NCBI GenBank assembly: GCA_903899945.1
Contig: CAIULA010000034.1
Coordinates: 186,001-250,000 of the forward strand
DNA: 64,000 bases
Source: an uncultured Alphaproteobacteria bacterium
Lineage (GTDB): Bacteria; Pseudomonadota; Alphaproteobacteria; Paracaedibacterales; CAIULA01
Reading direction: 5' to 3'
Part shown: positions 33,338 through 56,484 of the stretch, piece after piece
How the letters are laid out: each line of letters starts with the position of its first letter
How positions within the stretch are numbered: position 1 is the stretch's first letter
The notes under the pieces: generated by a model
What the model was told of the DNA's origin: nothing
The model's database searches: none
What the model saw: the letters and a program-made list of their open reading frames with translations, nothing else
Translations under genes and position numbers: made by a program

Positions 33338-34876
33338 TTACGCTGTTTTCCCTTTTTTGTCTGACTCTCCTTGTGTTAGGGCCATAAAGCGCTTACCAAG
33401 GTTTGTTGCCGCAAAGATCCAAATCAAGCAAATAACGATTACAATTGGGCCTAAGATATAGGAAAGGCTTGCCAAAGAAACGCTACCGCCGATAACGCCT
33501 AACATGGTTGATTGGATGAACGCGCCACCAGATTTACCTGCACGACCACCGATAACTTCCACTGCTGCCTGACCTTTTACTTTTGCTTCGGGGTCAAGAG
33601 GGATGTAAGCCATTTGTTTTGTCGAGTCAAAGAGAGAGTATTTTGTACCCTTTGAAAGAACATTTTGAATCTGTCCTACGATAACAGCAACCATAACAAC
33701 CGTCGTTCCTAACATTGGCAAGAACGGATCAAGAACTGTACTTTTCCAAACAAAGAAGAAGAAAATTGCAGAAGTTGCCAAAACCATAATTGGCGTAATA
33801 ATTGCAGCCGTTGTCCAACTTAAGCGACGCAAGATATTGTTACCAACAACCATCAAGAGAATTGTAACGATACCTGTCCACATAGTGAACTGACCCATAA
33901 ATGCGTTATAGTCATTCATGTCCGGGAATGCAATTTTAATCTGACCTTTCCACACACCCTCAACGAGGTTAATGGCAATACCATAAGCCAAAACAAGCAC
34001 AGCAATTAAACCTAGGTACGGATTGCTGAGAATATATTTAAAGCTCTCACCAACAGAAAGTTTTGGCTTTTTCTTTTTGCCTGAACCTTCACCCGGTTGA
34101 TAAAGTTTTGGGTCGGTTAGAACATTTTTGTTCATCCAGCGGTATGTTGCAACGATAATAAGACCTGCAACGAATACTGAACCCATCAAATATTTAAGAT
34201 TCACAGCAAATGAATCCACGCCTGCTGGCAGAGATTTCGCATGGTTTGCACACAAAATAATCGTTGGACCTGCAAGAACCAAACCGATATTTCCTAGCAT
34301 ACCGAACAATCCGTAGAAACGCTTTGCTTCGGTGATTTTGGTGATTTCGTTCGCAAACTGCCAAAAAAGCATGGATAAAATGACGCTTCCCCATAGTTCA
34401 GAAAGAATGTAGAACAAGCTAAAACTCCAGTTACCAATGACTGGTATGAACCAATGAAGGTTTGGATAAGCAGCTTGATATTGGTTGATGCTTTCCAGAC
34501 TCATGTGTAGCACTTCTTTATATGGGTAGATAAAGAATGCAAAGGCAGTGAAAAAGCCTAAGAATGGCAATAAAATTGCATAAAAAAGTTTTTCACGTTC
34601 CATTACGTTGGCTAACTTCACGAAAATGACCATAAAAAGAATCGCTGAAGGAGTGACTCCATAAAGTTTTAAAAAGCTGAGACACTCAGCGCCGCCTGCA
34701 GGGGCATTAACGACCAAAGTATCTTTTGTGTCGCGCAAAATGTTGTAGTTAAAAAGAATGCATAACATCATCAAGCCCATAGGCAAGAATTTTTTTAATT
34801 CATAATTATATACGGGCCAAAAAATGCCACGCAGACCAGAGAATTCTGGTTTTTTTGTATCAGGTTGATTACTCAT
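33338..34876 (-). CDS. tlc: ATP/ADP translocase (nucleotide transporter, Tlc/NTT family)
   Basis: Integral membrane nucleotide transporter of 512 residues and about 12 helices, in the rickettsial/chlamydial TlcA family (PF03219). Classical members exchange host ATP for bacterial ADP; others carry different nucleotides. The N-terminus LCILFNYNILRDTKDTLVV and GGAECLSFLKLYGVTPSA fit the family. Lys-rich loop EGSGKKKKPKLSVG near the middle; conserved SLFDSTKQMAYIPLDPEAK and KVKGQAAVEVIGGRAGKSGG. Presence of this gene is strong evidence for an intracellular life. It has its own promoter (35032-35059) and a leader with a hairpin. Confidence 0.96.
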   Translation of the reverse strand: MSNQPDTKKPEFSGLRGIFWPVYNYELKKFLPMGLMMLCILFNYNILRDTKDTLVVNAPAGGAECLSFLKLYGVTPSAILFMVIFVKLANVMEREKLFYAILLPFLGFFTAFAFFIYPYKEVLHMSLESINQYQAAYPNLHWFIPVIGNWSFSLFYILSELWGSVILSMLFWQFANEITKITEAKRFYGLFGMLGNIGLVLAGPTIILCANHAKSLPAGVDSFAVNLKYLMGSVFVAGLIIVATYRWMNKNVLTDPKLYQPGEGSGKKKKPKLSVGESFKYILSNPYLGLIAVLVLAYGIAINLVEGVWKGQIKIAFPDMNDYNAFMGQFTMWTGIVTILLMVVGNNILRRLSWTTAAIITPIMVLATSAIFFFFVWKSTVLDPFLPMLGTTVVMVAVIVGQIQNVLSKGTKYSLFDSTKQMAYIPLDPEAKVKGQAAVEVIGGRAGKSGGAFIQSTMLGVIGGSVSLASLSYILGPIVIVICLIWIFAATNLGKRFMALTQGESDKKGKTA

Positions 34877-39196: not shown

Positions 39197-39958
39197 CTAA
39201 AATTGATAAGCCAAACCGACTTTGATAATATGAGCGGTGTATTTTAAACTTTGATTATCATTGTTGCTAAAGCCACCACTATTATAATTTGCAGTTTGAG
39301 TGAGTTTCGTGCCTGGATTATAATTGTATTCAATACGTGCCAAAATATTATCGAAGGCTTTTTCTAAACCAACGCCTGGCACAATGACCATTTTTGTTTT
39401 TGTCGCTGTGAAAGTTGGACTTCCTGCGAAGCTTCCAGCTGTACTTCCTGGAGGGCTGGAAATATTTCCACCTGAACTTTGATGCAGAGCTTTATCGCGG
39501 CTAAATTCTAGCCCAACTTTACCATAAGCCATCATCGAGTTAGCAAATATCAGACCAAAACGAGGTCCGACTCCAAAGGCAAGGCCACGCTTATATTCAG
39601 AAGAAAATGGCCATTGACTTCCATCGCTTGCTGTTAAATTACCTGTTTTCATTTTGTTTGTTGTGTCGTCGTCTTGGACGGTGACTTCTCCACCTAGATA
39701 AAAGCCATTCATGTTATGTCCGTAACCACCCATTAGACCGTAAACAAAGCCATTGATTTTATTTTTATAGGAGGAATTAATAAAACCAGGTTGCACGGTT
39801 TGTCCACCACCGGAACTATTTTCAAGAACAGAGTCTGTAACTGTTTTTTGGATGTATCCTCCCTCAGCGCCAAGGTAAAACCCATTAAAGAGAGTATTGG
39901 CCTTAGCTAGGCTAATACTTGATACTGTAGCTAAAAGAGAAAGTATGGTTTTCTTCAT
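39197..39958 (-). CDS. Outer-membrane beta-barrel protein
   Basis: 253 residues. Signal peptide (MKKTILSLLATVSSISLAKA), then GFYLGAEGGYIQKTV, the start of an eight-stranded OmpA/Omp25-like barrel. Alternating strands end GPRFGLIF, YGKVGLEFSRD, GVGLEKAFDNILARIEYNY and the C-terminal IIKVGLAYQF, whose terminal Phe is the BAM signal. Gly/Ser-rich loops (SSGGGQTVQPG, SGGNISSPPGSTAGSFAG) would be surface-exposed. Similar small barrels are major surface proteins of intracellular alphaproteobacteria. Lies just downstream of the four exported paralogues on the same strand. Confidence 0.85.
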   Translation of the reverse strand: MKKTILSLLATVSSISLAKANTLFNGFYLGAEGGYIQKTVTDSVLENSSGGGQTVQPGFINSSYKNKINGFVYGLMGGYGHNMNGFYLGGEVTVQDDDTTNKMKTGNLTASDGSQWPFSSEYKRGLAFGVGPRFGLIFANSMMAYGKVGLEFSRDKALHQSSGGNISSPPGSTAGSFAGSPTFTATKTKMVIVPGVGLEKAFDNILARIEYNYNPGTKLTQTANYNSGGFSNNDNQSLKYTAHIIKVGLAYQF

Positions 39959-40101: not shown

Positions 40102-40920
40102 CTACATGTCTGAATTAGTATTATTGGTGATAGTTGAGCTAATTGATTTTCTTCTTCCAGAAGAAGATGAGAGCTGTGCAGTAAGAAGACTGTGCTGAGC
40201 TCCCAACCTTTTTAAAGATTCAATAACTTGGGGATAGGATGCTACCTGATCTTCTTCCCATGCCTTAACATCAACTGCACTGTCTGTAATAACTCCATGT
40301 CTATAAAGATCGATAATACCTTCAAAAAGTTCTTCTCCAATCTTAGCAGTTGCTAAGAGATATGCTGATCCTGATGAAATTCCATCTTTTCTTGCTTCTT
40401 CAATAGCCAGAAATCTTGCTGTTGCTGGTTTAAGAGCGTCAAAAAGCGCTTCGGCAATTTGATTAGCTTTTTTACTGGAAAAATCGCAAGATCTTACATC
40501 TGAGTTCAGTAAAACTGTATTTTGAAGTGCATATGTAAAGGCTGAGCGTTTTTCATCGACACTTTTCCCAGGAAATAAATCTAAAGTTTTTCGGGCAACT
40601 TGCTTGAAAAACCAATTTTCTTTACTCTCTAAAAACCAATTTTCTTTACTCTCTGTAACGTTTTCTAGAAATGACGTTACATATTGAAAGCAGCCATGAC
40701 TTGTATTTTGAGGTTCTAGGGCTTGGCAAATTGCATCAGCACTAAATACAAATTTAATTTTTGGAACAGTGAATTGATTTGCTCTATGGGTGGTGTAACC
40801 ATAATCTAATCCAGCTCTCCAGTGGTTATTTTCAGAGCTGGCAGAGGCCATTGTATTTATCATAGTTGATAGAACAGCGACAGCTGTAAGCATTTTTAAG
40901 GGTTTCACGAATTTCTCCAT
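40102..40920 (-). CDS. Exported paralogous protein 1 of the four-gene array
   Basis: 272 residues, no family recognised. N-terminal signal-like segment (LKMLTAVAVLSTMINTMASA). Shared family features: DYGYTTHRANQFTVPKIKF near the N-terminus (GY block), a middle helical part with LFPGKSVDEKRSAFTYAL, an EEARKDGISSG block, and the C-terminal YPQVIESLKRLGAQHSLLT. Ser-rich tail. It contains an exact 24-bp tandem duplication (40607-40654) giving two copies of ESKENWF. The most divergent member of the array. Location outside the cytoplasm is inferred from the signal. Confidence 0.75.
   Translation of the reverse strand: MEKFVKPLKMLTAVAVLSTMINTMASASSENNHWRAGLDYGYTTHRANQFTVPKIKFVFSADAICQALEPQNTSHGCFQYVTSFLENVTESKENWFLESKENWFFKQVARKTLDLFPGKSVDEKRSAFTYALQNTVLLNSDVRSCDFSSKKANQIAEALFDALKPATARFLAIEEARKDGISSGSAYLLATAKIGEELFEGIIDLYRHGVITDSAVDVKAWEEDQVASYPQVIESLKRLGAQHSLLTAQLSSSSGRRKSISSTITNNTNSDM
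40607..40654. repeat. Exact 24-bp tandem duplication inside an exported-protein gene
   Basis: The 24 bases at 40607-40630 are repeated exactly at 40631-40654. In frame it duplicates the eight residues ESKENWFL/F. Perfect identity suggests a recent slippage event, which can vary in copy number between strains. Confidence 0.9.
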
Positions 40921-41192: not shown

Positions 41193-41984
41193 TTAGTAGA
41201 GTTTTCTAGGTAACTTTCTTTTGGACGCAAGTGTAGCAACAAGAGTGCTCTGAAGAATTCCCATTCTTTTTAAAGATTCAATAATTTCGGGGTAGGATGC
41301 AGTTGGGTTTGTTGTCAGTTTTTCAACATCAATCTCACTGTCATTAAGAATCCCATCCTGATAAAGAGCAATCATCTGATTAGCAAACTCTATGAAAGGT
41401 CTTGCTTTTTCTTCTCTTGCTGCTCTTCCTTCTTCAACTCCGGCCTTTCTCGCTTCTTCAATGAATCTGTTACGGGCTTCAAGGGCTCTCTGAGCAGCTT
41501 CTATTTCCTCAACGATTGGTTTAAGTTGGTCATAAACTGAACGGGCTAATGAAGTTTGCATGGCAGGCGTGATATCATCTCTCTTGAATTGAAAATTCCT
41601 TACAGATATTACTAAATTATCTCTAGTAACCTTTGTGTCTAGCACTTCCAGAAAAAGGGCTTTTCTTGCATCGGCATTACTTCCTGGAAACTTATCTCTG
41701 ATTTTGATAACAGTATCCAGTAAAAACTTTTTTACAGGTTTGGCTGATGAAGTTGCCCAAAGAGTCCATGCACCTTTTTCTGGGTCAAAATGACGATTGA
41801 GGACACGGGAGACAGTATCGCGTGTAAAAGTAAAAGAATCATTACTTCCATCTCCAGTTCCCTTTATATAACCATAACGGTGCATATTTTCTAATGTATC
41901 CTTATCTTGGTCACTTACGGATGCCGACGCGCTTGCAATGGTTGATGCAACAATAGCAACCATTAGTAAACTTAATAAATTCAT
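41193..41984 (-). CDS. Exported paralogous protein 2 of the four-gene array
   Basis: 263 residues with signal peptide (MNLLSLLMVAIVASTIASA). Family blocks: MHRYGYIKGTGDGSNDSFTF (GY block then FTFTRDTVSRVLNRHFDPEKG), KFPGSNADARKALFLEVL, EEARKAGVEEGRAAREEKA, IALYQDGILNDSEIDVEKL, and the C-terminal YPEIIESLKRMGILQSTL. No catalytic motif recognised. Predicted largely helical. Followed by a long inverted repeat (41144-41172). Function unknown. Confidence 0.78.
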   Translation of the reverse strand: MNLLSLLMVAIVASTIASASASVSDQDKDTLENMHRYGYIKGTGDGSNDSFTFTRDTVSRVLNRHFDPEKGAWTLWATSSAKPVKKFLLDTVIKIRDKFPGSNADARKALFLEVLDTKVTRDNLVISVRNFQFKRDDITPAMQTSLARSVYDQLKPIVEEIEAAQRALEARNRFIEEARKAGVEEGRAAREEKARPFIEFANQMIALYQDGILNDSEIDVEKLTTNPTASYPEIIESLKRMGILQSTLVATLASKRKLPRKLY

Positions 41985-42349
41985 GATTTCTCCAAAATTT
42001 CAGTTGTTAATAGATGTAAAGTAGAATTTAATCTTTATACACGGATATAAATATTTTTTGTACTGTTATTTTGTAATTGAAATGAATATTCAAGACTATT
42101 TAAAGCGGGGGGATAAAAATGGCAAAGGTTAGGATGAGTTAGTTGTTCTACAAGATATACAAGATCTTTCCGGATCGCTGCGGCTTAGGCTCGCGATTGA
42201 CGATAAACCTTTTAAAAAGGTTGATTGTATCACTTTAAAGACACTAGATCTAGCAATGATTTTCCTTGGTTTTTTAAGGAAAAGCACTCCATTAGGTTAT
42301 TTATTTTCCCAATATTCGGTTGGGTCGCATAAGGTTGCGTGACCCAATA
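41985..42349. other. Intergenic region with hairpins, partly duplicated downstream of paralogue 4
   Basis: No gene seen. Contains AACCTTTT/AAAAGGTT (42206-42222), a TTTTCCTTG ... AAGGAAA hairpin near 42259-42287, and GGGTC ... GACCC with flanks TTGGGTCGCA/TTGCGTGACCCAA at about 42319-42347, just past the stop of paralogue 3. The TTTTCCTTG-TTTTTT-AAGGAARAGCA stretch and the following ATTTATTTT ... AATATT recur after paralogue 4 (43469-43535), showing that the duplicated unit included its 3' flank. Confidence 0.55.
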
Positions 42350-43324
42350 CTATTTGCCGTCAAAGTCTATCCTGACGGGTTTTATTGTTGAAATTGGTGT
42401 GCTAGTTGAAGGAGTGCCAGAATAGGCGCTGGATGCTGGTGTTCTAGCAGGCGTTGAAGCTACTGATTTAGCAGGTGTACTCATTGCTGATCTAGATGGA
42501 GAGCTTGCTTCTCTTGTCAGTCTTGCAAGTTCACCTGTCAGGGCGGAATGCTTAGCTCCTAATCTTTTCAAAGATTCAATGATTTTAGGATAAACTGTTT
42601 CAACAGCGGCACCAGTGTCAACGGTACTATCGTCAAGAACACCATCCTCATAAAGGCCAATCATTTTCTTGCTGAAATCAATAGCTGGTTCGGCAAGTCT
42701 TTTGTTTGATTCCGTTGCAAAGGCAACACCAGCTTCATGTGCACTTTGAATGGCAGCGCTTCGTGCTTGTGTTCGTAATGAAATTCTAGAATTTGCATCT
42801 CTAACAGCCTGAGTGTCTTTAAGTGCATCAAAAAGAGCTGTCGCACCATTATCTGACATTGAATCTGTTGGGGCTAACATTTTGTCGAAGCCAAGAGTGT
42901 TAACGCCAACAATAACAGCAGAACCTTCTTTTTGACTGAGGGCATTTATGAAAAGCTGTTTTTTCTGTTCAGCGTTGTCCCCTGGAAACTTTTCCAGCGT
43001 TTTACTAACAATATCTTTTAACAGTTTTTTTATGTTTTTGGTCGAAGGTTTCTTATGTGTATCAGACATTTTTTCTGTATCAAATCTGGGGTCCAGGATG
43101 TTAACAATGACCTGAGGGGTAAAGGTGAATTTATCAACAACAGCTCCATTTCCAAGTGAGCCTGGTTTATACTGATATCCATAATGTTCTATGTTTCTTG
43201 TCGTATCGAGATCTTGTTGAGCTAATCTTGGATCTGCTACAAGTGTTACCGTTGAAGCAACAGAGGGCAATAGAGTTGCCATTGATAAAAGTACTGCTAT
43301 TATAAGTGTTTTTGATAATTTCAT
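42350..43324 (-). CDS. Exported paralogous protein 3 of the four-gene array
   Basis: About 324 residues from ATG 43324; GGGG lies upstream and MKLSKTLIIAVLLSMATLLP is the signal peptide (an upstream start adds four residues). Family blocks: NIEHYGYQYKPGSLGNGAVV, FTFTPQVIVNILDPRFDTEK, KFPGDNAEQKKQLFINAL, NGATALFDALKDTQAV, SAAIQSAHEAGVAFATESNK, MIGLYEDGVLDDSTVDT and YPKIIESLKRLGAKHSALTG. The C-terminal tail is Ser/Thr/Pro-rich and low in complexity. The central block is nearly identical at DNA level to paralogue 4. No known domain. Confidence 0.8.
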   Translation of the reverse strand: MKLSKTLIIAVLLSMATLLPSVASTVTLVADPRLAQQDLDTTRNIEHYGYQYKPGSLGNGAVVDKFTFTPQVIVNILDPRFDTEKMSDTHKKPSTKNIKKLLKDIVSKTLEKFPGDNAEQKKQLFINALSQKEGSAVIVGVNTLGFDKMLAPTDSMSDNGATALFDALKDTQAVRDANSRISLRTQARSAAIQSAHEAGVAFATESNKRLAEPAIDFSKKMIGLYEDGVLDDSTVDTGAAVETVYPKIIESLKRLGAKHSALTGELARLTREASSPSRSAMSTPAKSVASTPARTPASSAYSGTPSTSTPISTIKPVRIDFDGK

Positions 43325-43603
43325 TGTTTTCCCCAAATTTTAGCCATACCATAAATTTTACATATGAAAGCTTTGTCTTCTACAAATGACTTTAATCTCT
43401 ATTCATTAAAAAAACGTTAAAAGTGCGCCTTAAAGTCCTTAATTTACTTTGTTAACAGCGGCACAACAAATTACTTTTCCTTGTTTTTTCAAGGAAGAGC
43501 ATTGTGTTATGACATTTATTTTTTAAATATTGGGTTAAGCGGTATAATGCCGGATGATACCGATTATTCGTCATTCCCAAATATTGAGTCAGATGTTGGC
43601 CTC

Positions 43604-43619
43604 ACAACTAATTAGTTGT
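43604..43619. terminator. 16-bp palindrome at the end of paralogue 4
   Basis: ACAACTAATTAGTTGT is a perfect palindrome overlapping the stop codon of the 43612-44568 gene. A second inverted repeat, CGGTAT ... ATACCG, lies at about 43541-43562. Possibly part of the transcript end; no clear U-tract. Confidence 0.35.
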
Positions 43620-44568
43620 CGTTATTCGTTGTGGAAACTGCTGAAGGTGTTAAAGGCGGAAAGGGTATAGGGGAGATCCTGCGTGCTGGTGTATTAGGTT
43701 CTGAAGCCGTTTCTTGTCTAACAGGTGTAGTCGGCGTTGATCTATATGGAGATTGTCTTTCTTTTCTCAGTCTTGCAAGTTCACCTGTCAGTGCAGAGTG
43801 CTGAGCCCCTAATCTTTTCAAAGATTCAATGATTTTAGGATAAACTATTTCAGCAGCGGCACTAGTGTCAACGGTATGATCGCTAAGAACACCATCCTCA
43901 TAAAGGCCAATCATTTTATGGCTGAAATCAATAGACGCTTCGGCAAGTCTTTTGTTTGATTCCGTTGCAAAGGCAACACCAGCTTCACGTGCACTTTGAA
44001 TAGCAGCGCTTCGTGCTTGTGTTCGTGCTGAAATTCTAGAATTTGCATCCGTGACAGCCTGAGTGTCTTTAAGTGCATCAAAAAGAGCTGTCGCGCCATT
44101 ATCTGACATTGCATCTGTTGGGGCTGATTTTTTGTTGAAGCCAAGTGCTGTAACTTCAACAACAACAGGGCCTTTCTCTTGTAAGGCTGCTATCATAATT
44201 GGCAAATTACTGTTAGTTGCATCGCCGTTAAACTTAGCCAAAGCCTTTGTTACAATGGCTTGAATAAGTTTCTTTGTGTTTTGAGCAGACGTTGGATCTT
44301 TTGCTTTAGATACCGTATCCGGATTAAATCTAGGGTCCATAACTGTAACGACAACTTCTGGAGTAATGGTCAATTTATCGATATTCGCCCCTTTAAAGAG
44401 TGTACTGTTATATGTATATCCAAAATGTTCTATGTTTCTGGTTGTGTCTTGATGCTGAAAGTCTAATCTTGGATGTGCGATTGGACCTGATGTTGAGGCA
44501 ATAGCAGGTATCACGCTTGCAGCGATTAATAACAGTGTTGTGGTTGCAAGTATTTTTGATAATTTCAT
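43612..44568 (-). CDS. Exported paralogous protein 4 of the four-gene array
   Basis: About 318 residues from ATG 44568, chosen because GGAGGAAG precedes it and MKLSKILATTTLLLIAASVI is a signal peptide. Family blocks: NIEHFGYTYNSTLFKGANID, TITPEVVVTVMDPRFNPD, NGATALFDALKDTQAV, SAAIQSAREAGVAFATESNK, MIGLYEDGVLSDHTVDT and YPKIIESLKRLGAQHSALTG. The tail is Pro/Thr/Ser-rich (TPARRISPIPFPPLTPS). First gene of the leftward array by direction of transcription. Function unknown. Confidence 0.8.
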   Translation of the reverse strand: MKLSKILATTTLLLIAASVIPAIASTSGPIAHPRLDFQHQDTTRNIEHFGYTYNSTLFKGANIDKLTITPEVVVTVMDPRFNPDTVSKAKDPTSAQNTKKLIQAIVTKALAKFNGDATNSNLPIMIAALQEKGPVVVEVTALGFNKKSAPTDAMSDNGATALFDALKDTQAVTDANSRISARTQARSAAIQSAREAGVAFATESNKRLAEASIDFSHKMIGLYEDGVLSDHTVDTSAAAEIVYPKIIESLKRLGAQHSALTGELARLRKERQSPYRSTPTTPVRQETASEPNTPARRISPIPFPPLTPSAVSTTNNDN

Positions 44569-44820: not shown

Positions 44821-45903
44821 ATGTCATTTTTTCCTTCTCCTCGTCCCAGTATTTTAAATATTTCTCCTTATGTTGGTGGGGATGTTACCCCCCCAGGATT
44901 CGTAAGACGCATAGGCCTTTCTTCGAATGAAAATCCTTTTGGACCAAGCCCTTTTGTAAAAGATATTATAAGGGCCGGGATAGATAGGGTTCATTTTTAT
45001 CCCAATAGCAACGCAACTGTATTAAGGCAAGGAATTGCCAGTTTTTATAATATAGATCCCAGTTGGATTCTATGTGGAAATGGCTCTGAAGATACACTTC
45101 ATCTTTTGGCGCGTACCTATGCGACTGAAGGAGATGAAATTATTTTTGCAGAAAGTGCCTTTGGGCTTTATCAAATTGCGACTTTAGCCGTTGGGGCAAA
45201 ACCAGTTTTAGTGCCACGTGAAAATTTCAAGCTGAACTGGAAAGCTGTTTTCCAAAAAGTGACACCTCAAACCAAAATCATTTATCTTGATCATCCTGGA
45301 AATCCTGTTGGGAATTTTTTAAATAAAGATGATCTTTTAAAATTGATCCAAGAGACTCCATCAACAGTATTGATTGTTTTAGATGCGGCTTATGCCGAGT
45401 ATTTAGAAGGTGTCGAGGGATATACATCAGGAATTGAGTTGGTTTCAGAATTTTCTAATGTTGTTATGGCTCGTACTTTCTCAAAAGCGTATGCTCTTGC
45501 AGGACTTCGGTTGGGGTGGATTTATGCAAATCCAAAGATTTTGGAACCTGTGAATCGTATTCGTCCACCATTTAACGTAACCTCTTTAACGCAAAATGCT
45601 GGAATCGAGGCTTTAAAAGATCAAACATGGGTCAAAAAGGCCATGGATCATAATGCTATTTGGCGTCCCTGGTTTGAAAGGGAAATAGAAAAACTGGGTC
45701 TTTCTTTTATTCCTTGCTATGCAAATTTCAGCATGGTTAATTTTGGCGACAAAGCGACCGATGTTTATCAGTTTTTAGGTGAAAATGGCATTATCGTACG
45801 TCCGATGGGGGCGTATAATTTACCTAGTTATTTGCGAATTACGATAGGACAGGCCCATGAAATGCAAGAATTGGTGGGTTTATTGAATAAGTTTTACACA
45901 TAA
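44821..45903 (+). CDS. hisC: Histidinol-phosphate aminotransferase-like PLP enzyme
   Basis: Class II aminotransferase of 360 residues, HisC type. N-terminus GLSSNENPFGPSP (SxNENPxGPS), PLP-phosphate region GNGSEDTLHLLART, the Asp in DAAYAEYLEG, and Schiff-base Lys in ARTFSKAYALAGLRLGW. The C-terminal Arg for substrate carboxylate is in LRITIGQAHEM. HisC-like enzymes can also make phenylalanine or tyrosine. No other his gene is in the window, so the true substrate is unclear. Ends in a strong bidirectional terminator. Confidence 0.9.
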   Translation: MSFFPSPRPSILNISPYVGGDVTPPGFVRRIGLSSNENPFGPSPFVKDIIRAGIDRVHFYPNSNATVLRQGIASFYNIDPSWILCGNGSEDTLHLLARTYATEGDEIIFAESAFGLYQIATLAVGAKPVLVPRENFKLNWKAVFQKVTPQTKIIYLDHPGNPVGNFLNKDDLLKLIQETPSTVLIVLDAAYAEYLEGVEGYTSGIELVSEFSNVVMARTFSKAYALAGLRLGWIYANPKILEPVNRIRPPFNVTSLTQNAGIEALKDQTWVKKAMDHNAIWRPWFEREIEKLGLSFIPCYANFSMVNFGDKATDVYQFLGENGIIVRPMGAYNLPSYLRITIGQAHEMQELVGLLNKFYT

Positions 45904-52851: not shown

Positions 52852-55800
52852 TTAAAAAACTTCTTTTTTCGATAATGATTTAGCAATACCTATTTCTTTT
52901 AAGATTTGATTTGCTTCTTGAAGATGTTGGATATGAGCTTCTGAAGCACCTGTTTTTCCCTCAACTTTTGCTAATTCAATGAGAGCCCTGGCTTTGCCTT
53001 CTAGATCGTGATGGGTGGTGTAAAAATCTATGGCTTTTCTGTAAGCTTCTGAGGCTTTTTGATAGTCATTTTTTGCAATCTCTAATTCTCCAATACCAAT
53101 CATAACGCTAGCAATATAGATATCAGCTCCTGAGTTCTTGAATATAGTTTCTGCTTGATTATAAAGAACGTAAGCTTTTTGGTAATGACCTTTTAGAGTT
53201 TCTAACTTTGCCATTTCACTTAGAATTTCTGCTTCGTATGTGCTATTCTCTTTAAATTTTAAAAGTGTTAATGCGCGCTGATACGCAATAGATGCTTGAT
53301 CAAAATGATTTAGGTCTCTTGCAAGATTACCAATTTCTCTCCAGGCAGCAGACTGCATTAATGTGTCACGTAATATGTTGGATAAGTTTAAGGCTCTATT
53401 TAAATGGGTTTGGGCTTGTTCATTTTTTCCTGTTCTCATCTTAATTTGACCAATGGCAAGATGACTTGTGGCTTCTTCGTATTGATTACTAATTTCTTGA
53501 GAAGTTACCAGTGCCTGATTGTAATATTGTTCAGCTAAGTCATAGTTTCTAAGTTTTTTTTCTATATCCCCCATTGATCTTAGAACTCTAATTTTTGCAT
53601 AAGGCGTAGACATTTCTTGAAAAACATTGAGAGCTTGTTGGTAGAAATCCTTGGCTTGCTTATAGTGACTCAGTGAAAATTCAAGATATCCCACACCTTC
53701 TAAAACTAAGGCCTCTCCATAACGATTATTTAGCCCCTTATAAATAGAAAGGGAGTTATTGAAAGATAATCTGGCATTTTCATACTTGTTAAATGCAATA
53801 TCAGAAAAACCTAAACATAGCAAAGATTCTGCTTCTTGATGTCTGTCTTTGATGTGGCGAGATATATCGTATGATTGTTCAAAAGCACCTCGAGATTCTT
53901 TAAGGTTATTGCTTGAACTTTCCATTTTCCCTAAGATTCTGATAACTTCAGCTTCTCCTCGCAGATATTTAACTTTCTTAAAAAGAGAAAGAGATTGTTC
54001 ACAGGAATTAAGAGCCTGCCCCCAATTCCCTAAGGTGGCATCTAATTTGCACATACCTAGTAAAGCTTTACCTTCGGCTTGTGAGTCTCCAATTTGCTTT
54101 GCTATCAAGAAGGAGCCCTCAAACGCTCTTCGAGCCTGTTCATATTTTCCTAATTGAAGCTCAAGATCACCAATACCGTACAAAACTCTAGTTTCTCCTC
54201 TAAGATATCCAACTTTCTTAAAAAGAATATGAGCTTCGCTGTATTGCGATCGAGCATTATGAAAATTTCCTAAAGTAATATTGAGATCTGCCAAACCAAG
54301 TAATACCCTTGCTTCACCATTGGGAAAACTGGATTCTCTACATATAACTAAAGCTTTTTCAAATGTTGACTGTGCTTTGTTATAATCACCTGAAATGCTA
54401 CTTATAGCTGCAATAGACTGAAGAGAAATTCCAAGACCAGTTTTTTCATTCATAGCAGAGAAAAGTCTTGCAGACTCTTCAAAATAAAACGAAGCTTGGT
54501 CAGTATCTCCTTCTTTGAAATGTATGGCCCCAAGACCCCATAAAGCATAAGCTTCGGACCAACGGTCGCCAATTTCTTTTGCAAGGATTGCTGCCTCTTC
54601 AAAGAAACCCTTTGGGGTATCTGGATTCCCTCTAATTAACTCGATGTGCCCCTTTTCTGATAGAACTTTACTTTGAAATTCACGGTCACCTAGTTTTTTA
54701 AAAATAACATAGGCTTGATCTAAGAAATCACGACTTTCGTCGTAAGAGCTTAGGTGGCTTTCCAATAAGGCTAATCCATATAAAGTTTTAGCTTTTCCGA
54801 GGCCATCGTTAATTTCTGTATAGCCTTCCAGCGCTCTCATATAAAAAGTACGAGCTTCTCCAAGACTTCCTGTCATTCTTTTAACATTAGCAAGACCTAA
54901 ATATCCTGAAGAAAGAACACGTTTGCTTTTTATTTTTTTCGCAATATTAAGTCCTAAATTAAAGTTTTTCTCTGCTTCATCATAATAGTTTGTATAATGC
55001 TCTAATATGCCAAGGCCAATATAGGCATCCGCTTGCCCTTTTTCGTGGTTAATGAGTTTGGAAATTGTAATTGCTTGTTGATACGCAGCTAGAGCTCCTG
55101 GAAAATCACCTAATTTTCTTTTTAAAGATCCAATTTCTATCCAAACTTTGTGTTCACCAAACGGCGATTTAATCGTTTGATAAATTTCTATAGCTTTATC
55201 AAAGGCTTTCTTTGCTTTGTCGTAATCTGCCATATATTTATGTAATTTTCCGCACCAGAAAAGGGCATAAGCTTCTTCCCAGGGAACATGAATTTGTCTA
55301 CTAATATTAAGGGCTTCTTCAAATAAGTGGATAGCTTTATGATTGTTGCCAATTTTGAACTCTAATGTACCAAGGCCAATTAAGGACTTTATAATTCCTC
55401 TGGGTTCTTTTATTTCTTTGAAGAGAGTAAGGCTTTGTTCGTAAACAATCCTTGCTTGATCGTAATGTCCAATTTTAACTTCTACATCACCTAGGCCTCT
55501 TAAGACTTTAGCTTCTCCTCTGCGGTCTCCGATTTGCTTAAAAAATGTTAGACTTCTGCCGTAAAGTTTTATTGCTTCTTGATGATTTTCCTTAGCACTT
55601 TCAATATGTGCTACCCCTCTTAGTGAAAAAGCCTCTCCTCTGCGATACCCTATTCGTCCAAAAATAGAAAGTGCTTCTGCATAAAATTCTAAGGCTTTGC
55701 TAAAGTTTCCAATAACTCGTTCTTTATCACCTAAATCCCTCAGGATTTGGCCTTCACTTTTGGTGTTTTTAAGAGACCTAAAAATAATCAAAGCTTGATT

Positions 55801-56484
55801 ATAGTCAGCTGTTGCTTGATCGTATTGCCCTATATGATAATTAATTTTTCCAAGTTCTCTGTAAACAATGGCCAATCCGGATTTATCTTCTGCTTTCTTA
55901 AATCTCTCTAAGCAGGTTAGTAGAAGTTTTTTGGCCTCTGTCGTGTTATTCATAAGGGTTTGAAGACTTGCAATTCTCAAAGATGTATAGGCTTCAGATA
56001 TTGATTCACCTGAGTTCTTAAAGAGGATGCATGCTTGCGTATAAAGCTCAAAAGCTTCTTCTGTTTTATCTGCAATTCGAAGTTTCTCAGCGAGTGAGAA
56101 TAATTTTTTACCCTCTAAACTTTCTTCACTCTCTTTTGCTAAAGGAGGAGTAAAGACGTCTGTTTCAGGCTGGTAGTCTATGTGAAAACTTGGGGAAGAA
56201 AAGTCTGGTAGATTAGGGATGCTAACAAAAGATTTTGTTTCATCTTCCGAAATAGTCGCTGCTGATAATGCGGTATTCACTATATCTTTATTCGAGACGA
56301 AATGCCACAAGCCTGCTGCAATCAGAAAAGACGCTACCATGTAGGGGATAAAAAAAATGTAAATTCTTCTTTTTCCTTGCTCGTTTCTATGATCGGTCCA
56401 AATTAAAAATGAACAAAGGAAAAGATTAAGAATGAAAAAAGGAATATAAGGGTAATTTTTAAAGAAACCCAAAGCCCAGTTCAT
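52852..56484 (-). CDS. Large membrane-anchored TPR-repeat protein
   Basis: 1210 residues. TM helices at about 11-29 and 41-62 with a basic loop between (DHRNEQGKRRI), which by the positive-inside rule suggests that the long C-terminal part lies in the periplasm; this is inference. From about residue 115 to the end it is an almost unbroken run of roughly 27 tetratricopeptide repeats of 40 residues, with patterns such as GEAKVLRGLGDVEVKIGHYD and QARIVYEQSLTLFKEI. Such solenoids bind protein partners. Many units are highly alike, implying internal duplication. No enzymatic domain. Convergent with the sensor-like gene. Confidence 0.9.
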   Translation of the reverse strand: MNWALGFFKNYPYIPFFILNLFLCSFLIWTDHRNEQGKRRIYIFFIPYMVASFLIAAGLWHFVSNKDIVNTALSAATISEDETKSFVSIPNLPDFSSPSFHIDYQPETDVFTPPLAKESEESLEGKKLFSLAEKLRIADKTEEAFELYTQACILFKNSGESISEAYTSLRIASLQTLMNNTTEAKKLLLTCLERFKKAEDKSGLAIVYRELGKINYHIGQYDQATADYNQALIIFRSLKNTKSEGQILRDLGDKERVIGNFSKALEFYAEALSIFGRIGYRRGEAFSLRGVAHIESAKENHQEAIKLYGRSLTFFKQIGDRRGEAKVLRGLGDVEVKIGHYDQARIVYEQSLTLFKEIKEPRGIIKSLIGLGTLEFKIGNNHKAIHLFEEALNISRQIHVPWEEAYALFWCGKLHKYMADYDKAKKAFDKAIEIYQTIKSPFGEHKVWIEIGSLKRKLGDFPGALAAYQQAITISKLINHEKGQADAYIGLGILEHYTNYYDEAEKNFNLGLNIAKKIKSKRVLSSGYLGLANVKRMTGSLGEARTFYMRALEGYTEINDGLGKAKTLYGLALLESHLSSYDESRDFLDQAYVIFKKLGDREFQSKVLSEKGHIELIRGNPDTPKGFFEEAAILAKEIGDRWSEAYALWGLGAIHFKEGDTDQASFYFEESARLFSAMNEKTGLGISLQSIAAISSISGDYNKAQSTFEKALVICRESSFPNGEARVLLGLADLNITLGNFHNARSQYSEAHILFKKVGYLRGETRVLYGIGDLELQLGKYEQARRAFEGSFLIAKQIGDSQAEGKALLGMCKLDATLGNWGQALNSCEQSLSLFKKVKYLRGEAEVIRILGKMESSSNNLKESRGAFEQSYDISRHIKDRHQEAESLLCLGFSDIAFNKYENARLSFNNSLSIYKGLNNRYGEALVLEGVGYLEFSLSHYKQAKDFYQQALNVFQEMSTPYAKIRVLRSMGDIEKKLRNYDLAEQYYNQALVTSQEISNQYEEATSHLAIGQIKMRTGKNEQAQTHLNRALNLSNILRDTLMQSAAWREIGNLARDLNHFDQASIAYQRALTLLKFKENSTYEAEILSEMAKLETLKGHYQKAYVLYNQAETIFKNSGADIYIASVMIGIGELEIAKNDYQKASEAYRKAIDFYTTHHDLEGKARALIELAKVEGKTGASEAHIQHLQEANQILKEIGIAKSLSKKEVF

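Follow-up and report, generated by a model that had tools for sequence, protein, structure and literature searches.

The third and fourth genes of a four-gene tandem array, p3 and p4, share a homogenised internal block of 376 nt whose best explanation is ectopic gene conversion within the array, or a double crossover of equivalent outcome; we assign this reading a probability of roughly 0.88. The window, i.e. the whole stretch of 64,000 nt that was analysed (G000:C34:186001-250000), belongs to a genome of 1.69 Mb in 46 contigs that is 91% complete. The pair, from a small alphaproteobacterial genome, represents a clear and well-resolved but ordinary case of a known process.

The four paralogues are encoded on the minus strand between a gene at 39197-39958, which we take to be porin-like from the look of its protein (it has no family match in Pfam or NCBIfam), and hisC (44821-45903), identified by a TIGR01141 match above cut-off. 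Two of them, p1 (40102-40920) and p2 (41193-41984), are two-module members of the family and lie outside the exchange. The other two, p3 (42350-43324) and p4 (43612-44568), are direct repeats spaced by about 0.3 kb. Read from the ATG codons at 43324 and 44568 they encode 324 and 318 aa, respectively, the ORF caller having set the starts at TTG 43336 and TTG 44610. p3 consists of an apparent Sec-type signal peptide, an N-domain, a helical hairpin and an S/T/P-rich tail, p4 is laid out alike, and, by eye, all four genes have the look of a Sec-type signal peptide at their start. The proteins are probably secreted; a role at the host interface would be a guess, and neither fold nor sequence pointed to a function. 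An Rfam scan of the window returned one tRNA and nothing inside the array. Elsewhere in the window, a TLC-type ATP/ADP transporter is encoded at 33338-34876 (PF03219, 674 bits), a protein type that points to an intracellular, energy-drawing lifestyle, and a 1210-aa protein consisting mostly of TPR repeats (PF13424, 12 stretches) at 52852-56484.

The codons of p3 and p4 were aligned from the ATG starts with the protein sequences as guide, and the alignment was segmented with a two-state HMM. The tract called by the model covers 42517-42892 in p3 (codon columns 146-271, residues 145-270) and 43767-44142 in p4, both on the minus strand, in good agreement with the central block that the original prediction had located in these genes. 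Two very short conserved bits (columns 1-6 and 44-51) were called in addition and not counted as tracts. Between the tract and the N-terminus, identity is 61.7% over 423 aligned nt; in the tail (42353-42516 in p3, 43615-43766 in p4, minus strand) it is 58.2% over 146 nt. The block, expected to be near-identical, is 92.0% identical in nucleotides, but the C-modules are 86% identical as proteins and the tract contains 24 changed codons (31 nt), of which 17 change the amino acid and 7 are silent.

The mosaic is also present at silent sites. In sliding NG86 windows, pS between p3 and p4 is 0.43-0.75 across codon columns 1-140, 0.00-0.21 for windows within columns 141-300, and 0.41-0.50 for windows starting at column 281 or later. 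Most of the influence of protein selection drops out when the comparison is limited to codons that specify the same amino acid in both genes. Of these, 100 of 107 are identical within the block and 52 of 79 beyond it (Fisher p 1.8e-6). None of 20000 permutations attained the observed score of a silent-only segment test, and 3 of 20000 reached the longest stretch of identical codons (54). While the 5′ edge of the tract is sharp, the 3′ edge is less so: the amino acids of the tail mostly differ, yet the same-amino-acid codons in columns 272-300 are identical in 10 of 10 cases, and the tract may thus formerly have extended into the tail. Hence, the sharp mosaic described originally applies to the 5′ side and is blurred on the 3′ side; likewise, the ends of the genes are diverged as claimed in the N-terminal half and in the amino acids of the tail, but not in the tail codons that specify the same amino acid.

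Codon maximum likelihood was used to compare age and constraint along the pair. In the N-terminal half (columns 1-145; 42893-43324 in p3 and 44143-44568 in p4, minus strand), dS is ~1.77 and omega 0.24 (2dlnL 26.8 against an omega of 1). The tract has a dS of ~0.12, a ~15-fold drop, and an omega of 0.65; the omega of 1.84 in the tail is not significant. A single divergence time for N half and tract is rejected even when omega is free (2dlnL 53.3), whereas a single omega costs a 2dlnL of only 3.37. Thus, the block is younger and not merely more constrained. One rival explanation holds that the genes share a single duplication age throughout, without recombination, and that the block alone is under strong purifying selection. 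It would agree with the better conservation of the hairpin relative to the N-domain between other paralogues (C-module identity of p1, p2 and c32 to p3/p4 36-43%; N-domain identity of p1 and p2 20-33%). Still, silent divergence falls as well, the shared-time model fails, and omega in the block exceeds that of the N half, contrary to what strong constraint would give; unless the silent sites are themselves constrained, this leaves the explanation with an almost negligible probability. Neither even divergence nor low dN with normal dS was seen in the sliding windows, and recombination between p3 and p4, as put forward in the original prediction, is supported. It should be noted that whole-gene trees or dN/dS values can mislead in this family, the whole-gene dS of p3 and p4 being 0.58 compared to 1.77 and 0.12 by segment.

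An alternative is that the whole gene was duplicated recently and that both ends then diversified at an accelerated rate. The family does evolve fast, p3 being 35% identical in amino acids to the member found in the congener G001 while HisC and Asd are 89-91% identical, and the tail combines a nominally high omega with identical silent codons. Conversely, silent sites of the N half are saturated and the segment is under purifying selection, and the non-coding flanks of p3 and p4, 5′ as well as 3′, are also just ~70-75% identical where best alignable. We consider this scenario very improbable; diversified ends, mentioned from the outset as the alternative to conversion, are contradicted for the N half and possible for the S/T/P-rich tail. 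The flank identity agrees with an old tandem duplication and places a breakpoint on either side of the block.

The 3′ side deserves separate consideration. Unequal crossing-over could have made one gene a hybrid by a single breakpoint, the tail and 3′ flank having diverged later. Direct tandem repeats favour such an event, and the combination of a sharp 5′ edge, a blurred 3′ edge and silent-identical tail codons would suit it. However, a 3′ flank of the same age as the block should be near 90% identical, whereas identity in the alignable stretch of non-coding sequence 3′ of the two genes is about 64-77%, the level of the old divergence. A segment downstream of p3 (42260-42332, minus strand), for instance, is 74% identical to its partner downstream of p4 (43475-43547, minus strand) and is what remains of the old duplication unit beyond the tract. 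Two breakpoints are therefore needed, and a single crossover appears quite unlikely. In short, the block has edges on both sides and its flanks are unexchanged, the coding tail being ambiguous at silent sites.

Congeners provide a time scale for the exchange. The dS between the source genome and its congeners is 1.21 (G001) and 0.79 (G002) for hisC, 1.35 for asd and 1.70 for the porin-like gene. Given similar silent rates, the dS of the tract places the exchange well after the split from G001 and G002; by this sequence-based estimate its age would be about one tenth of that of the genus-level split (hisC/asd dS 0.8-1.35), and the p3/p4 duplication would be about as old as the split from the congeners if silent rates are alike across genes. 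The block is therefore young relative to the genus but not fresh, and "very recent" overstates the case. When genome contigs were searched with HisC, two congener contigs were obtained (HisC 89% identical); the search with p3 found no relative. In G001, the interval between the porin gene and hisC measures 243 nt and lacks the array, the porin side of the junction showing 72% alignable identity to the window. Its sole family member, as detected with the N-domain profile, sits elsewhere, near a PLD-like gene and a gene that looks HU-like. Downstream of hisC in G001, a protein (L023:7050-8990) was observed that has a long stretch of T/P/S-rich repeats and then a membrane-like segment. In G002, a truncated N-domain fragment (L022:37-384) adjoins hisC in the same place as p4, and the contig ends just beyond. 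In the N-domain tree p3 and p4 are placed as sisters (84/90) and the members from G001 and G002 fall outside this pair, no branch reaching the star level of the tool. The end branches of p3 and p4 measure 0.47 and 0.81 in this tree versus 0.042 and 0.11 for the C-module.

The differences within the tract are unevenly distributed. Codons with at least two changes are over-represented (7 versus 2.3 expected, P 0.0016). In columns 193-256, 9 codons carry replacements and the 54 codons that agree in amino acid show 0 silent differences, three of the replacements falling in the predicted loop of the hairpin. The 6 codons of columns 257-262 make up a dense island of 4 silent differences and 1 replacement, possibly a patch that escaped conversion. 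Neither the island nor the excess of double hits is expected from one clean event with random mutation afterwards, so that both count against it; several overlapping conversion events, or mild diversifying selection in the block, are possible. Mutagenesis resembling that of diversity-generating retroelements was considered for the clustered multi-change codons and rejected, as bases other than adenine differ as well. Repeated short conversions combined with diversifying selection on exposed hairpin positions would be in line with the replacement-rich stretch at columns 193-256, its loop positions and the double-hit codons. On the other hand, none of the segments tested within block or tail has an omega significantly different from 1, and positive selection is not significant; 2dlnL is 1.02 for the tract and 1.92 for columns 193-256, which were selected with the data already in view. 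Comparing the omega of the tract with that of the N half gives a 2dlnL of 3.37 (see above). We regard this explanation as unlikely. A more far-reaching version, in which recurrent short conversions keep the hairpins of neighbouring genes homogenised and selection diversifies the tip loop and the disordered tail, is improbable; if true, conversion and diversification would act jointly on one module and give rise to new binding variants.

For comparison, the silent-segment test was extended to 16 family sequences (11 from the source genome, 1 from G001, 3 from G002 and 1 from G006), i.e. 120 pairs. The only pair whose score was reached in 0 of 2000 permutations is p3-p4; the runner-up, at 0.0015, is unremarkable for 120 tests. 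With regard to recurrence, 1 of 120 family pairs stands out, and neither G001 nor G002 yielded an adjacent pair of orthologues with a C-module. Searched at the DNA level with the block, the 91% complete source genome gave matches in p3, p4 and a 44-nt part of p1, with no third copy. Similarly, no silent-cassette reservoir of partial copies was found, both copies of the block being located in full-length open genes. At the positions that differ, the outgroup nucleotides match p3 in 26 cases and p4 in 19, which in a single genome gives no direction of transfer. An intact recA, matching above the family cut-off, is present at G000:C33.

Structure prediction locates the tract relative to the modules. 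An AlphaFold2 model of p3, computed from 12 sequences (mean pLDDT 79.6, pTM 0.56), predicts an alpha/beta N-domain at residues ~32-168, a helical hairpin at 172-226 and 241-274, and a disordered tail. On this model the tract would comprise the last helix of the N-domain and nearly the whole hairpin, stopping near the end of the second helix. As it begins ahead of the hairpin, the 5′ breakpoint is off the module border. Foldseek returned no PDB match at E 0.001 for the p3 model or the N-domain model, which is not proof of a new fold. The best VIA-align scores were Z 2.9 (rmsd 4.6, 90 aligned) for the p3 model and Z 4.0 (rmsd 3.3, 82 aligned) for the N-domain model. Profile searches of PDB sequences gave weak matches only (best E 0.41 for the C-module and 0.084 for the N-domain).

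The family was further delineated with profiles built on the family members themselves. At strong E-values, the source genome contains 9 N-domain and 9 C-module places in 11 genes, seven of which have both modules, two the N-domain alone (c21, c34c) and two the C-module alone (c32, c19b); one additional C-module match (E 0.09) was left out of the count. Besides p1-p4, the seven further members are scattered over the genome (L007 and L011 on G000:C19, L008 and L009 on G000:C34, L005 on C32 and L006 on C21), their modules are mixed, and an extra repeat-like segment was noticed by eye in c19a, c19b, c19c and c34b. Among 42 genomes of the order, the source genome included, the N-domain was detected at E 0.001 in four (source, G001, G002 and G006) and the C-module in one (source). 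By eye, the G001 protein has a seemingly very diverged C-half, 16-18% identical to p3/p4, and the same may hold for the G006 protein. A match in G057 (E 7.8e-4) was taken as chance because the reading frame there is presumably type IV pilin-like, going by its motif. The family was found in one bacterial family only among the genomes searched. None of p1-p4 has a Pfam match above cut-off or an NCBIfam match at E 0.01, and six proteins compared with PHROGs gave nothing below E 0.05. Two members end in the peptide GMPLFD (G000:C19:15391-15411, minus strand, and G000:C34:95676-95696, plus strand), the only places in the source genome that match the corresponding degenerate DNA pattern; GIFD and SIFDDE are the C-terminal ends of the G006 and G001 members, respectively. 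Such a terminus is possibly a sorting or binding tail. A fast-evolving, module-shuffling and probably secreted family without a Pfam or NCBIfam name may be of interest to specialists in host-associated bacteria.

Returning to gene conversion within the array, the following course is proposed. An old tandem duplication would have produced p3 and p4, which diverged over their whole length. Later, well after the split from the sequenced congeners, homologous recombination would have taken place between the two direct repeats, a break in one gene being repaired from the other so that ~376 nt were copied and the flanks left behind. The block would then have gained new differences, most of them amino-acid changing. 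We infer that the exchange was mainly one event and that RecA-dependent conversion was the agent. The block presumably covers the hairpin in part because the conserved hairpin offered the longest near-identical stretch for pairing.

A search of the literature found no report of gene conversion in Holosporales or intracellular Alphaproteobacteria, which is no proof of absence from print. In antigenic variation, e.g. the pilin or msp2 systems, genes are altered by conversion from silent cassettes. p3 and p4 resemble such systems in that a segment was exchanged within a probably secreted or surface protein family; unlike in them, no silent-cassette reservoir was found for the block, which has two copies in its own genome. 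Closer in kind, the tuf genes of Salmonella show continuous conversion tracts inside repeated genes in experiments (PMC5485169). As with tufA and tufB, p3 and p4 are a homologous gene pair in one genome in which an internal block was transferred and the surroundings were not; the tuf machinery may, by analogy, have acted at p3/p4 as well. Whereas tufA and tufB are nearly identical throughout, p3 and p4 are adjacent, fast-evolving and ~60% identical outside the tract. Finally, the long-lasting concerted evolution of prokaryotic paralogues (PMC6053082) likewise leaves paralogues within a genome more alike than their age predicts, but in p3/p4 homogenisation concerns one block of one pair.
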